Source: Thermodesulforhabdaceae bacterium (GTDB lineage Bacteria > Desulfobacterota > Syntrophobacteria > Syntrophobacterales > Thermodesulforhabdaceae). From it: 64,000 nt of DNA. Under the pieces are notes generated by a model. That model was not told where the DNA came from. It did no database searches and saw only the letters and a program-made list of their open reading frames with translations. Position 1 is the first letter of the stretch. Each line of letters begins with the position of its first letter. The DNA is taken from positions 1 to 64,000 of the forward strand of contig JBBFKT010000010.1 in assembly GCA_037482015.1 (NCBI GenBank). Direction: 5' to 3'. Made by a program: the position numbers and the translations under genes. Below are positions 21,881 through 27,480 of this stretch, piece by piece.

Positions 21881-23053
21881 CTAAAGATTTGGCACTTCTT
21901 CAAAAACAAGCATAGGTAAAGATTCTGCTTGAGGAAGCCCCTGAGTCTCCATTAGAAATCGATAGCCTGAATCGTCCAGAATTTGCCACGCTTTCAGGAT
22001 GTCAAAGGTTGGGTGGAATATAACCGATAATTTGAACCTGGATGGGATTGACGGTTTGTCATATGCGACGACTTGATTAAAAATACTGTTTATTCTGGAT
22101 GCCACATCAATGATCAGTGACTTATGTTCCTGGGGTTGATCAATATAATCCTGCAGAGCCGTCCACAATTCGACAATGTGGCTTCCTACAGAACTGCTGA
22201 TTTCAGCATATCTTTTGTCTCTTATGCCTTCAAAAATATTAGGAACATCCACAAGGGTTATAATTTCTGGAAACCAGGTAAAACCGCCGCGCTCTTCCTT
22301 TGTTCTGACCGGATCTATCAATTCTTCTGCTACATCCCTGGATATGCAAAGCAGTATGGGAAGTTGCTTTCCGAGCTTTGTAATTCTTCCTTCGTCAATG
22401 TGACATCGACGGACATAAAAAGAGAGATTGGCAAAATACATTCTTAGCCATTGAACTGTGCGCATTCTGGTGAGATAGCCAAAGTAACTTCTTCTGGGAA
22501 GTTCTTCAGCGGCAATGCGAACAGCCTCCTCCACATCTTCAAAATCTTCATCGCTTTCCAAGCCAAGAGATGCCCTGAATTGATCCTCAAGATCTTTTAC
22601 CTTGAAAAGATCATTATCTACTTCAATGTCTTTTTCATCGAGATCTCGAGCTAGTTCCAAAAAGATTATTGACTCGACAATAAAGTTCCACCCAGGATCT
22701 GAAGATCCTGTTTCATAGCCTTTGAGGGCTGAACGTAAGCGAGTTCTTGTTTCAGCTAATTCTTCCTCAACTTTAGCAAGGGAAATTGTTTCCAGGATGT
22801 GTTTTTCTCCATGAATTCTGGCGAATTCCTGATATCCTTTGTAAATATTATGAAGAAGATCCATTTTGTGTTGGTCTAACGAAAGAGAATGAACTGAAAT
22901 CATGCCTTTGTCCCAGGGAGGACAGTAGGGGGGCCTGATAAAACCGAGCACCTGCATAGAAGGAAGAGTTAGTTCAAGAAAGCGGTAGTAAGAATCAGGC
23001 AAGTGAGAAAAGGGGAATAGAAAAACCTGTTCCAGCAGAGTTTTTTTCGCCAT
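21881..23053 (-). CDS. Unrecognised 390-residue cytoplasmic protein
   Basis: I do not recognise this family. The product has no signal peptide or membrane span. It begins with FPFSHLPDSYYRFLELTLPSMQVLGFIRPPYCP and is rich in aromatic and acidic residues, with likely helical segments (LAETRTRLRSALKGY, DIEVDNDLFKVKDLEDQF). It is flanked by mqnD three bases upstream and gspE 24 bases downstream on the same strand, so all may share a transcript. It could belong to either pathway or to neither. Confidence 0.7.
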   Translation of the reverse strand: MAKKTLLEQVFLFPFSHLPDSYYRFLELTLPSMQVLGFIRPPYCPPWDKGMISVHSLSLDQHKMDLLHNIYKGYQEFARIHGEKHILETISLAKVEEELAETRTRLRSALKGYETGSSDPGWNFIVESIIFLELARDLDEKDIEVDNDLFKVKDLEDQFRASLGLESDEDFEDVEEAVRIAAEELPRRSYFGYLTRMRTVQWLRMYFANLSFYVRRCHIDEGRITKLGKQLPILLCISRDVAEELIDPVRTKEERGGFTWFPEIITLVDVPNIFEGIRDKRYAEISSSVGSHIVELWTALQDYIDQPQEHKSLIIDVASRINSIFNQVVAYDKPSIPSRFKLSVIFHPTFDILKAWQILDDSGYRFLMETQGLPQAESLPMLVFEEVPNL

Positions 23054-23056
23054 GTC

Positions 23057-23929
23057 TTACACCTCACAGTGTCTGTTATCAATTCTTGTTTCATCCCAGA
23101 AAAGCGTTGTAGGCTTGCGAATCTTTTTGTTCTTTGTCGCTTCTTCAACAAAGCGATAAACAGCTCGCCTCCCGATGATCCCGAGATCTTCCGAGAATTC
23201 ATTTACAAAAGCGTCTATGTGTTTATCAACAATATCTTTTCCCATTTCGCTCGCGTATTTTTCTATAAAATGATAAACTTCGCTTCTGTGAGATCTGGCA
23301 TATAAAATGCTGTTTCTCAGAGCTTCGTTGATTAATTGACCATAGCCTTTGGTTAATAACGTCCGCTTGATAGCAATAATGCCCAGAGGTAAAGGAACTT
23401 CAAAGGTTTTATTCCATAGCTCTCCAAGGTCTAAAATTTTTACCAGCCCGTAGGACTGATATGTCCATCGGCCTTCGTGGATAACTACACCAGCATTCAC
23501 AAAGCCATCTCTAACGGCAGGCATAATGTCGCTAAAGAGCATCTCATGTCTGGGCCCTTCATGCAAATTAAAAATGTCCAGGAGCATAGCGGCTGTTGTG
23601 CCTTTTCCGGGAATAGCTATCGATGTATGGCGAAATTCTTCCATGGATAGCGGTTGCTTTGATACAACAATTGGCCCATCCTTCCAGGTTAATGCTCCTC
23701 CAGATGTAAGTATGGCGTATTCGTGAGATAGATTAGGGTAAGATGCTACGGATGTTTTCACCACATCGAGCCTTTTATCCTGTGCCATCCTGTTAAGTTG
23801 CTCAACGTCTGCAATGACATATTCTATATTAAAGGGCAAATCCGAAATCTTTCCATTTACAAGATCGCAAAATATAAAAGTATCATTAGGGCAGGGCGAG
23901 AAACCTATGGCTAGCTTGGTTTTCATCAT
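23057..23929 (-). CDS. mqnD: 1,4-dihydroxy-6-naphthoate synthase MqnD
   Basis: MqnD turns cyclic dehypoxanthine futalosine into 1,4-dihydroxy-6-naphthoate in the futalosine route to menaquinone. The 290-residue protein has the family opening LAIGFSPCPNDTFIF, the KTSVASYP segment and a GPIVVSKQPLSMEEF region in a periplasmic-binding-protein-like fold. ATG 23929 follows AGGAG at good spacing; a second ATG is in the next codon. mqnB lies upstream, and no other mqn gene is in the window. The pathway fits the quinone-dependent Qmo and Nuo complexes. Confidence 0.92.
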   Translation of the reverse strand: MMKTKLAIGFSPCPNDTFIFCDLVNGKISDLPFNIEYVIADVEQLNRMAQDKRLDVVKTSVASYPNLSHEYAILTSGGALTWKDGPIVVSKQPLSMEEFRHTSIAIPGKGTTAAMLLDIFNLHEGPRHEMLFSDIMPAVRDGFVNAGVVIHEGRWTYQSYGLVKILDLGELWNKTFEVPLPLGIIAIKRTLLTKGYGQLINEALRNSILYARSHRSEVYHFIEKYASEMGKDIVDKHIDAFVNEFSEDLGIIGRRAVYRFVEEATKNKKIRKPTTLFWDETRIDNRHCEV

Positions 23930-23978: not shown

Positions 23979-24800
23979 TTATTCAAGACCATCATCAGTC
24001 AAACCGCTTTGAAGGATTTTTATTACGCAACTACATGCGTTAGAGATAGCTCTATCCATCTGCCACAGTGACTTGTCTCTCTCACCGACTCTGTTGCTTA
24101 CGCCTCTAATGGCGACAATAGGAATTCCCATTCTTAGCGCAGCCAGAGCAATAGCCGAAACTTCCATTTCCTCAATCCAGGCTCCATAGGTTTTTTGACG
24201 AAATAAAGCAACTTCTGGCGACCCGCTTGCAAGCCCCACAGAGCAACTTGATCCATACCAAACCCTGAAAGCCCTAGCTGGTTCTTCCCTTAGATCTAGA
24301 CGCTCTGTTTTGTCCTGAAGAACTCTTTCCTGGTAATGAATCCCAGATGGAAGCAATTTTACTACTTTTTCAAATTTAAGAGCGATTCTGCCGTAAAGGG
24401 CGTCATCTATAGATTCCAGCGGTGAGATGCCGATAGCGTCGTAAGATGACATATAATCTTTTTCGTGCCAGACTCCTTCATCTCCCATTATACATTCTGT
24501 AACAATCACTACATCCCCTATCGAGACAGGGGTAGAGTCATAACAGCCTGCGATACCAACGTTTATAATAATTTCAGGATAATCGGATTTTTCAGCTAAT
24601 GCGCCAACAGTAAAGGAAGCATTTGCTTTTCCAATGCCCGTCGTAGCAAGTAATATAATCCTTCCTTTGGAACACTCCAGCTTCCACAGTTGCTGGCCAT
24701 GAAAAGGATAAACTTCTCCTTGCTTGCTTTCTATTAAAGGCTTCAGTTCACTTTTAATGCTAGCCAGCACCCACGCAAAAGGTTTTAACTTGCTATTCAT
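23979..24800 (-). CDS. mqnB: Futalosine hydrolase MqnB
   Basis: MqnB removes hypoxanthine from futalosine in menaquinone synthesis. The 273-residue product is a nucleoside-phosphorylase-fold protein: LLATTGIGKANASFTVGAL, INVGIAGCYDSTPVSIGDVVIV and a WIEEMEVSAIALAALR segment containing the substrate-binding Glu. A 5'-methylthioadenosine nucleosidase is the nearest alternative, but the adjacent mqnD supports MqnB. It is divergent from ispH across a 94-base promoter gap. Confidence 0.88.
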   Translation of the reverse strand: MNSKLKPFAWVLASIKSELKPLIESKQGEVYPFHGQQLWKLECSKGRIILLATTGIGKANASFTVGALAEKSDYPEIIINVGIAGCYDSTPVSIGDVVIVTECIMGDEGVWHEKDYMSSYDAIGISPLESIDDALYGRIALKFEKVVKLLPSGIHYQERVLQDKTERLDLREEPARAFRVWYGSSCSVGLASGSPEVALFRQKTYGAWIEEMEVSAIALAALRMGIPIVAIRGVSNRVGERDKSLWQMDRAISNACSCVIKILQSGLTDDGLE

Positions 24801-24839
24801 TTCGCTCTACGTTTAAAAAATGACCGTTAAAGCTTCTAA

Positions 24840-24868
24840 TCGGTTGCACATTCAAGCAAAGGTATAAA
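24840..24868 (+). promoter_or_regulatory. Possible ispH promoter
   Basis: A good -10 box, TATAAA (24863-24868), lies 27 bases before the GTG start. The -35 at 17-base spacing is TCGGTT, a poor match. The gap also has to hold the divergent mqnB promoter. Confidence 0.3.
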
Positions 24869-24894
24869 CTTTTTAGATCGTGAGGTAAAGACCG

Positions 24895-26592
24895 GTGAAA
24901 GTTATTGTTGCGAAGACGGCTGGTTTTTGTAACGGCGTTCGTTATGCCCTTGATGTAACTCTTGATGCTGTAAAGCGTCGAAAACCTGATGAGATCATCT
25001 GCACCTACGGGCCACTGATTCATAACCATCAGGTTCTTGCAATTCTTAAAGAAAAAGGCGTTCGAGAAGTTAATTCTCCTGAAGAATGCGAAGGAAAGAC
25101 CGTGGTAATAAGAGCTCACGGTATTCCCCCCAACCTTCGCCGCCAGATTTACGAAAGAGCCACCAAGGTTATTAATGCCACCTGTAAGCGGGTTGCTCGA
25201 GTTCAAGCCGTAATCCGTCAGCATGCTCGTAAAGGTTACCACACGGTTATTGTGGGAGATGCTGATCATGCCGAAGTGATTGGACTTTTGGGGTATGCTG
25301 AAGGAAAGGGCATTGCCATTCAGCACCCTGACGATGTTGAAAAACTCCCAGACGACTGGGAAAAAGTTCTTCTTGTGGCTCAGACAACCCAAAATGAAGA
25401 AATCTTTGAAGAAGTTGTTAAACGATTTCGTCAGAAATACCCATCAGGGGTTATAAAGAAAACCATCTGCGGTGCTACTCACGAACGTCAGGAAGAAGTA
25501 AGGCAGCTCGCTCGCAAGGTAGATGCTATGGTTATAGTTGGGGGTTACCACAGCGGTAATACTGTGCGATTGGCTCAGGTTGCTCTTATGGAAGGAGTTC
25601 CGACCTACCACGTGGAAACTGAAAAGGATCTAAACCCGGAAGAAATGTCACGCTACAGAGTTGTAGGGGTATCAGCCGGAGCTTCAACTCCGCAGTGGAT
25701 GATTGAAAATGTTGTTCGCTTTCTGGAAACCATTTCACATCGCAAAGCTTCCATAAAGGATTACATTCGTGAACTATACAAAGTTCTTGTTTATTCTCAG
25801 GGTATTTCTTTTCTAACGGGTTTCTTTTTTACTTTTGCTGTCGGTCTCCTTTTGGGAATTAGACCAGGTTTCATGGTCGCTTTCCTTGCTGGACTGCTGT
25901 GTTTTGCAATGCAAGTTCTTTATTGCTATCTTTCTTACGATGGAGTGCTTTTTAATGATCCCCAATGGACGAATTTTCTCGTAAAACACAGAAAATTTCT
26001 TATCGGTCTTGCCGTTACGCTCTCTATGATTTTTTCTGGATGTGTATGGCTTGACCTCTGGGCAATGCCCGGTTTTGCCTTAGCTGTAATTCTCGGAAGC
26101 ATTCTTCTTATCTCAGGTGACGATCTTCGATCTTTTCTGGGCTTGGGATACTTAGTAAAAGCCCTTTTTTGGACTGCACTGACAGTGCTTATGCCCTTTG
26201 GAAGAGAGCTTTTTTCTCACCCTCTGGAATTATTTGTTGTGGGGCTGGTTGCGTTTCTCACCCTTTTTATGAAACATCTCATTCAGGATCTTATTGAAAC
26301 TCGACGGGATCGTGTTATTGGTCGGGGAACTCTTGTAGGTGTTTGGGGACTGGAAAAGACAAAAAAATACCTTTTCGCTGGAATATTTGCTCTGTTCTTG
26401 ATGCTCTTTCTGGGACCGTCTATCGGAATACTTAGTCGAGCAGCCTATCTTTTCGTTGTGCCGCTGGGAGTATTGGCCTTTTGTGTTAGTCGGTTTGTTG
26501 GCAAAAGAACAATAACCGATTCCACCATGACCGACCTACTTATTGATGGAAGTTTCATTATACCTGGATTTATAGGTCTTTTGTTTCTATAG
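24895..26592 (+). CDS. ispH: IspH (HMBPP reductase) fused to a C-terminal polytopic membrane domain
   Basis: IspH reduces HMBPP to IPP and DMAPP as last step of the MEP isoprenoid pathway. Residues 1-285 carry the three cluster cysteines Cys12 (GFCNGV), Cys97 (NATCKRV, usually DATCPLV) and Cys192 (KTICGATHERQ), plus RAHGIPP and SAGASTPQW. Residues 300-565 add about eight transmembrane segments and a FMKHLIQDLIETRRDRVIGRGTL stretch, reminiscent of the second Asp-rich region of UbiA prenyltransferases. IspH is normally about 300 residues and soluble. GTG 24895 follows TGAGGT. Whether the membrane part is a prenyltransferase is inference. Confidence 0.88.
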   Translation: MKVIVAKTAGFCNGVRYALDVTLDAVKRRKPDEIICTYGPLIHNHQVLAILKEKGVREVNSPEECEGKTVVIRAHGIPPNLRRQIYERATKVINATCKRVARVQAVIRQHARKGYHTVIVGDADHAEVIGLLGYAEGKGIAIQHPDDVEKLPDDWEKVLLVAQTTQNEEIFEEVVKRFRQKYPSGVIKKTICGATHERQEEVRQLARKVDAMVIVGGYHSGNTVRLAQVALMEGVPTYHVETEKDLNPEEMSRYRVVGVSAGASTPQWMIENVVRFLETISHRKASIKDYIRELYKVLVYSQGISFLTGFFFTFAVGLLLGIRPGFMVAFLAGLLCFAMQVLYCYLSYDGVLFNDPQWTNFLVKHRKFLIGLAVTLSMIFSGCVWLDLWAMPGFALAVILGSILLISGDDLRSFLGLGYLVKALFWTALTVLMPFGRELFSHPLELFVVGLVAFLTLFMKHLIQDLIETRRDRVIGRGTLVGVWGLEKTKKYLFAGIFALFLMLFLGPSIGILSRAAYLFVVPLGVLAFCVSRFVGKRTITDSTMTDLLIDGSFIIPGFIGLLFL

Positions 26593-26595
26593 AGC

Positions 26596-27480
26596 ATGCC
26601 ATCTATCGTTGTTCCTGTAAGTGTGGTTATTACAACCTTTAACCGCGCCAGGTTTATTGAAGAAGCTGTCCGATCGGTTCTTTCCCAACGAAGGGTAGTT
26701 CCACTTGAAGTTATTGTCGTAGATGACGGTTCAACTGATGAAACTCCCAAAATAATGGAAGCTTTTAGGTGCAGAGTAAAGTATGTCTTTCAAAATAATA
26801 GGGGTGTGAGTTCTGCTAGAAATCATGGAATTATGTTGTCATCTGGGGAATGGATAGCCTTTTTGGACTCTGACGATCTGTGGCTTCCACATAAACTTTT
26901 CCATCACTGGCGGTTTTGTTTAGAAAATCCCCATATTCTGATCTCTCAAACTGATGAACTATGGCTTCGGCGAGGAACTCATTTAAATCCCAGGAAATAT
27001 CATGAAAAACCCGAAGGATATTGTTTTGACAGGCTTCTTGAACGGTGTCTTATAAGTCCATCGGCTGTCATGATTCATCGATCTATCTTTACTAGCGTGG
27101 GGTTCTTTGATGAACGTCTCCCAGCCTGCGAGGACTATGATTTGTGGCTGCGTATTGGTTACCAATATCCTGTAGGGCTGGTTAGGAATAAACTCGTGAT
27201 CAAACGAGGTGGACACGAAGATCAACTTTCCAGTTCAATAAAGGCGCTTGATAGATTCCGAATCTTTGCGATGGTTAAGCTCCTTTTGCATGAACCGTTA
27301 TCAACGAATCAGCGGCAGGCTGTAATAAAGGAACTTTCAAATAAGTGCAAAATTTACGCTCTTGGAGCAAAAAAGCGAAGCAAAACCTTACAGTATGAAT
27401 TTTTTCTAGCCCTTCCAGCACTTGTTCAAGAAGGGCGTATAAGAGACGAAACAGATCTTTTTCCTTACATGATCGATTAA
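26596..27480 (+). CDS. Family 2 glycosyltransferase
   Basis: The 294-residue product has the GT-A/GT2 pattern: VVITTFNRARFIEEAVRSVL, VVDDGSTDET, NRGVSSARNHGI and the metal-binding FLDSDDLW. A later ACEDYDLWLR (ED motif) matches the catalytic region. It transfers a sugar from a nucleotide donor to an unknown acceptor. It starts three bases after the ispH stop, so it is probably translationally coupled, perhaps acting on a polyprenyl-linked acceptor. Its stop overlaps the convergent der stop by four bases. Confidence 0.88.
   Translation: MPSIVVPVSVVITTFNRARFIEEAVRSVLSQRRVVPLEVIVVDDGSTDETPKIMEAFRCRVKYVFQNNRGVSSARNHGIMLSSGEWIAFLDSDDLWLPHKLFHHWRFCLENPHILISQTDELWLRRGTHLNPRKYHEKPEGYCFDRLLERCLISPSAVMIHRSIFTSVGFFDERLPACEDYDLWLRIGYQYPVGLVRNKLVIKRGGHEDQLSSSIKALDRFRIFAMVKLLLHEPLSTNQRQAVIKELSNKCKIYALGAKKRSKTLQYEFFLALPALVQEGRIRDETDLFPYMID

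Follow-up and report, generated by a model that had tools for sequence, protein, structure and literature searches.

In the 64,000-nucleotide stretch of a Thermodesulforhabdaceae bacterium analyzed here (hereafter, the window), IspH is fused to a membrane domain that descends from the UbiA superfamily and is degenerate yet conserved within the genus. We consider it roughly 60% probable that, in this protein, a catalytically dead pseudo-prenyltransferase tethers an active IspH to the membrane. The fusion as such and the idea that it channels isoprenoids were already published in 2015; what is new is the degenerate yet conserved membrane half in this genus. A 2015 study by Rao, O'Dowd, Li, Wang, and Oldfield reported 47 IspH-UbiA fusions from sulfate reducers; they had two DXXXD motifs, their function was unknown, and a separate UbiA/MenA gene was noted as well (PMC4746011). 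These authors proposed that IspH provides a local isoprenoid supply or that UbiA localizes the protein to the membrane, and expression of the tested members yielded mostly truncated or insoluble products and no intact protein (PMC4746011). In the open-access literature, we found neither a UbiA pseudo-enzyme nor any later work on IspH-UbiA fusions. Intact fusions confound two roles, synthesis of a prenylated product and retention of IspH at the membrane, and these are separated by lineages that keep an apparently dead membrane half beside sister genera from which this half was deleted. Should the anchor reading be true, membrane placement of IspH would itself be selected, and intact fusions need not be substrate channels only.

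The fused gene and its two halves are located as follows.
24895-26592, plus strand: fused open reading frame ispH::ubiA, GTG start, 565 amino acids, without internal stop codon
24895-25734, plus strand: IspH (LytB) domain, residues 1-280, Pfam LYTB 2.5e-86
24928-24930, plus strand: Cys12 codon (GFC motif), predicted 4Fe-4S ligand
25183-25185, plus strand: Cys97 codon (ATC motif), predicted 4Fe-4S ligand
25468-25470, plus strand: Cys192 codon (TIC motif), predicted 4Fe-4S ligand
25735-26589, plus strand: UbiA-superfamily membrane domain, residues 281-565, nine predicted spans, predicted to be catalytically inactive

The Pfam LYTB/IspH match spans residues 3 to 277 (2.5e-86), and the best PDB IspH match of the N-terminal half was 3dnf (1.5e-62). 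All three cluster cysteines and the conserved active-site columns are present, and in an alignment of 86 fusions, 74 of 74 conserved columns of the IspH part were kept. Like the stand-alone IspH proteins of A. aeolicus (3dnf) and E. coli (3ke8), the N-terminal half is a complete domain with three cysteines, but the window protein adds a membrane domain of 285 residues. The half is a normal, intact, and presumably active IspH, and the genome (2.7 Mb, 95% complete) contains only this one copy. An assembly or frameshift artifact was ruled out, as the 565-amino-acid frame is common to the sister species and lies at a single-copy, syntenic locus. The Pfam match and the hydropathy spans confirmed that IspH and a polytopic membrane domain share one reading frame, as a preliminary description of this DNA had proposed. 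Its estimate of ∼280 extra residues also held (∼285 found); its roughly eight spans became nine, and the charged stretch that it had mentioned was located at residues 465 to 480 (DLIETRRDRVIGRGTL).

Nine hydropathy spans were found in residues 281 to 565, and lysine and arginine residues favored the loops expected to be cytoplasmic (18 versus 3). Judged by sequence only, the domain is predicted to have the eight or nine transmembrane helices and the cytoplasmic N terminus of UbiA proteins, which suggests an integral membrane protein of this topology. On its own, the window sequence matched Pfam UbiA with an E value of just 8.7, and no confident fold was obtained: AlphaFold runs on two-sequence alignments were of low confidence in both cases (pLDDT 45 and 48), Foldseek with this low-confidence model returned no fold match, and a PDB sequence search with the family profile returned no UbiA match. 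The weak Pfam match and the lack of a confident fold would fit a membrane domain unrelated to UbiA that merely resembles it. However, there is next to no chance that this is correct, since it is already contradicted by profile homology, by a shuffling test, by an NCBIfam prenyltransferase match, by syntenic orthology with other fusions, and by the IspH tree (see below). The C-terminal part had a weak but significant NCBIfam prenyltransferase match (1.5e-5), and the domain of the sister species matched Pfam UbiA directly, at 4.8e-4, which is below the curated cutoff. In hhalign, a profile built from 27 fusion C termini, all of which matched Pfam UbiA at an E value of ≤0.01 (27/27; best, 2e-14), aligned with the pair of window and sister sequences over 278 columns (probability, 99.7; E, 1.2e-26). 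The window domain scored 97.4 bits with the family profile, and the maximum among ∼6,000 shuffled copies, half of them shuffled within ten-residue blocks so as to keep the hydropathy pattern, was 16.5 bits, which excludes chance similarity. The fusion profile aligned only weakly with a profile made from two UbiA sequences of the same genome, a comparison that is not a membership test and indicates that shared hydrophobicity alone gives no high scores. The nearest NCBIfam models were PRK12872, PRK12882, and PRK13591 (DGGGP-synthase/ChlG-like), and the 27 family C termini were likewise nearest to DGGGP-synthase and chlorophyll-synthase-like models. Residues 281 to 565 are thus a divergent UbiA-superfamily domain by descent, and the UbiA-like C terminus postulated earlier proved correct. 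The domain shares profile homology, nine spans, and the second Asp motif with AfUbiA, EcMenA, and UBIAD1, but differs from them in lacking the first Asp motif and the TM4 tyrosine and in being fused to IspH.

Three sites of the membrane domain were compared with the other fusions. From the 86 aligned fusion ORFs, one (L134) was left out because its C terminus was too degenerate, which leaves 83 besides the window and its sister species.
25903-25962, plus strand: degenerate first Asp-rich motif, FAMQVLYCYLSYDGVLFNDP, in ungapped alignment with the 83 other UbiA-type fusions
26122-26151, plus strand: site of the L4-5 KDIPxSKT loop, now DLRSFLGLGY, with the TM4 tyrosine absent just upstream
26287-26334, plus strand: second Asp-rich motif, DLIETRRDRVIGRGTL, with D465 and D472 kept and the family QG changed to RR

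At the first motif, the family consensus is FAMHxLNxYLDxxAxxxNDPxR (also FAMHxLNxYLDxxAxxLNDP), and the window reads FAMQVLYCYLSYDGVLFNDPQW, with H replaced by Q340, N by Y343, and D by S347. In the sister species, the three residues are Q, Q, and S. In place of the NDxxDxxxD of active UbiA proteins, whose N and first D bind Mg, the window has YCYLS, and compared with the 83 other aligned UbiA-type fusions, N and D are both gone only in this genus. Of the 86 fusions, 82 have the TM4 tyrosine, and the TM4 region of the window protein (residues 388 to 411) has no tyrosine; because a 10-residue gap falls within the alignment of TM4 and L4-5, residues there are absent rather than substituted one to one. 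The two aspartates of the second motif were retained, as D465 and D472 in DLIETRRD. Altogether, this genus kept 10 of the 20 C-terminal columns that are conserved in ≥90% of the family, and other clearly UbiA-type fusions kept 14 to 20. Published mutagenesis showed that AfUbiA no longer binds GPP when it carries N68A, D72A, or K146A and that EcMenA loses its function once its equivalents of N68, D72, or Y139 are mutated; Y139 of AfUbiA, the TM4 tyrosine, is present in 97% of UbiA sequences (PMC4106721). We infer that the lysine of the KDIPxSKT loop is the counterpart of K146. As the window domain has neither the N and D of motif 1 nor the TM4 tyrosine nor the conserved L4-5 loop, and equivalent mutants are dead, it appears to have lost transferase activity. 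The membrane half may still bind a ligand, D465 and D472 being kept. Compared with the 'Rosetta stone' fusions of Rao et al., the window protein has the same domain order, with a C-terminal fusion to IspH, nine spans, and likewise a Desulfobacterota-related host, and it is a syntenic ortholog of intact fusions; it departs from the two DXXXD motifs described there in having no motif 1, TM4 tyrosine, or L4-5 loop, and still the domain persists.

As proposed by Rao et al., the protein could alternatively be an active bifunctional enzyme that performs prenyl transfer via an unconventional motif 1 and is locally supplied with IPP and DMAPP. The retained motif 2 aspartates, purifying selection on the membrane domain (see below), and the tolerance of single motif 1 changes in other fusions would agree with this, but the motif 1 ligands, the TM4 tyrosine, and the lysine-bearing loop were lost jointly and only in this genus, and the equivalent AfUbiA and EcMenA mutants are dead (PMC4106721), which makes continued prenyl transfer decidedly unlikely. 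Intact fusions of several lineages with a single motif 1 change (e.g., L094, L102, and L146) had N replaced by Y or H, or D by G, N, or S, and kept the H, the KDIPxSKT loop, and QGD. That several family members lack one motif 1 residue is a point against the pseudo-enzyme reading: an atypical motif 1 may be tolerated, or used, in this family, whose chemistry may differ as a whole from that of textbook UbiA proteins. The usual donors of UbiA enzymes are long-chain compounds, not IPP or DMAPP, so any channeling would be indirect. The channeling of isoprenoids into a fused prenyltransferase reaction, as envisaged in the preliminary description, is unlikely here, given the residues lost, and would be plausible for the intact relatives. 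Nor did its suggestion of channeling to menaquinone via the fused part stand. A search for a separate ubiA/menA found an MqnP-type UbiA gene beside ubiE on another contig of the genome, so that menaquinone has its own prenyltransferase gene and the fused domain is not needed for it; the other UbiA gene of this genome is similar to decaprenyl-phosphate phosphoribosyltransferase. A role of the fused domain as menaquinone prenyltransferase was thus rejected.

Within the genus (n = 2 genomes), the protein of the sister species also has 565 amino acids, without any indel, and is 64% identical over the membrane domain. Between the two species, differences per codon position of this domain were 0.27, 0.16, and 0.60, pN/pS was 0.30, and dN/dS was ∼0.09, an approximate value as dS is near saturation. 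The best-conserved part was the cytoplasmic L2-3 loop, the former place of motif 1 (19 of 23 residues, or 83%, versus 111 of 171, or 65%, in the spans). Because of the absence of indels, the low dN/dS, the excess of third-position changes, and the conserved L2-3 loop, we conclude that the membrane domain is under purifying selection and not drifting.

Other genomes were surveyed for the fusion, as had been advised. Of 60 related genomes, 49 had the membrane domain, almost always within ORFs of ∼580 to 650 residues that also encode IspH; as in the window, IspH precedes the UbiA-type domain in the same ORF. Each of the five genomes of the window's bacterial family (f1) contains one IspH, which is fused in two (565 residues) and solo in three (G002 to G004). 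The solo proteins have 280 to 283 residues and are encoded at the same syntenic locus, with the GT2 glycosyltransferase gene within about 10 nt. A maximum-likelihood tree built from the IspH part recovered the window's family as monophyletic (100/99); its fused and solo forms were sisters, and the clade around them was otherwise fused (100/99). Since the solo forms nest within this clade, the fusion is the ancestral state, and the three solo genera have lost the domain. Relocation of the domain was ruled out, as a profile search of G002 to G004 found no detached membrane domain at an E value of ≤1. This loss in three sister genera, together with the missing catalytic residues, might suggest that the UbiA half of the window protein is a nonfunctional, decaying remnant heading for deletion as well. 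However, this is highly improbable and already contradicted by the constraint described above, as dN/dS is ∼0.09, divergence is 0.60 at third versus 0.16 at second codon positions, and neither species shows an indel or a stop codon.

A degenerate UbiA-type domain was also observed in family f34 (genomes of 1.2 to 2.3 Mb), where 26 of 26 genomes have long IspH frames, nearly all of ∼550 to 580 residues. The domain was present in the 20 sequences read (L155 to L174) and homologous by profile (probability, 97.3; E, 2.5e-11), with motif 1 lost or broken; conservation is limited to D-G-F-L in motif 2 and a PLG..E pattern at the C terminus. This degeneration is independent of that in the window's genus. 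Several genomes of family f5 (e.g., G040, G042, G044, and G047) have two IspH genes, one fused and one solo, and the solo protein (305 to 310 amino acids) belongs to a clearly different IspH lineage.

Our preferred explanation is that a working IspH, which catalyzes the last step of the MEP pathway, would make IPP and DMAPP while a covalently attached domain of nine helices keeps it on the cytoplasmic side of the inner membrane. This UbiA-descended domain, devoid of prenyl-transfer chemistry, would act as an anchor or scaffold, and an anchor role is what the membrane half probably has. Catalytic constraint on the UbiA half would have been lost in the window's bacterial family, with three genera excising it and this genus keeping it as a pseudo-enzyme. 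The solo IspH of the three sister genera is a point against tethering, which is dispensable there. By analogy, the domain could also be regulatory, sensing a prenyl lipid, a quinone, or the membrane state by way of the conserved cytoplasmic L2-3 loop and what survives on the motif 2 side, and modulating the attached IspH. The strongest conservation indeed lies in this loop, D465 and D472 are retained, and the UbiA-fold protein UBIAD1 of animals binds HMG-CoA reductase and is a known GGpp sensor for this mevalonate pathway reductase (PMC9314443). On the other hand, motif 1 no longer has its main diphosphate-binding residues, the sister genera do without the domain, and we regard a sensor as unlikely. 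The UBIAD1-HMG-CoA reductase complex resembles the fusion in physically coupling a UbiA-fold protein to a reductase of an isoprenoid pathway, but as it consists of separate proteins in the mevalonate pathway and an active UbiA, the likeness is an analogy only. Its most speculative extension, a bacterial counterpart in which a dead UbiA domain would respond to a prenyl lipid or to the membrane and feed back on the last MEP step, and at which at least two lineages, this genus and f34, would have arrived independently, is improbable.

The anchor reading concerns a gene within a conserved locus, in which mqnD-mqnB is divergent from (dus)-ispH::ubiA-GT2.
26596-27480, plus strand: GT2 glycosyltransferase gene, Pfam Glycos_transf_2 4e-31
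23979-24800, minus strand: mqnB, futalosine hydrolase, divergent neighbor, TIGR03664 8.8e-38 (above cutoff)
23057-23929, minus strand: mqnD-type menaquinone gene, Pfam VitK2_biosynth 5e-61
21881-23053, minus strand: gene of unknown function, 390 amino acids, adjoining mqnD-mqnB in 13 of 22 compared loci

The order dus-ispH::ubiA-GT2, often with divergent mqnB/mqnD, is found in the window except that dus is missing in this genus. Most relatives, among them members of the same family, have this tRNA-dihydrouridine synthase gene between mqnB and ispH; it is absent from window positions 24801 to 24894. The coupling of the glycosyltransferase gene behind the fusion was verified, its ATG lying 3 nt past the stop codon, and this GT2 family (F2) occurs in 16 loci and is a conserved neighbor of ispH in most loci. 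In the sister species (L004, downstream of 8858), GT2 is replaced by an apparent leuS (leucyl-tRNA synthetase), which indicates that glycosyltransferase coupling is not obligatory. The product of 21881-23053 had no Pfam, NCBIfam, or significant PDB match and is possibly an undescribed menaquinone-related protein.
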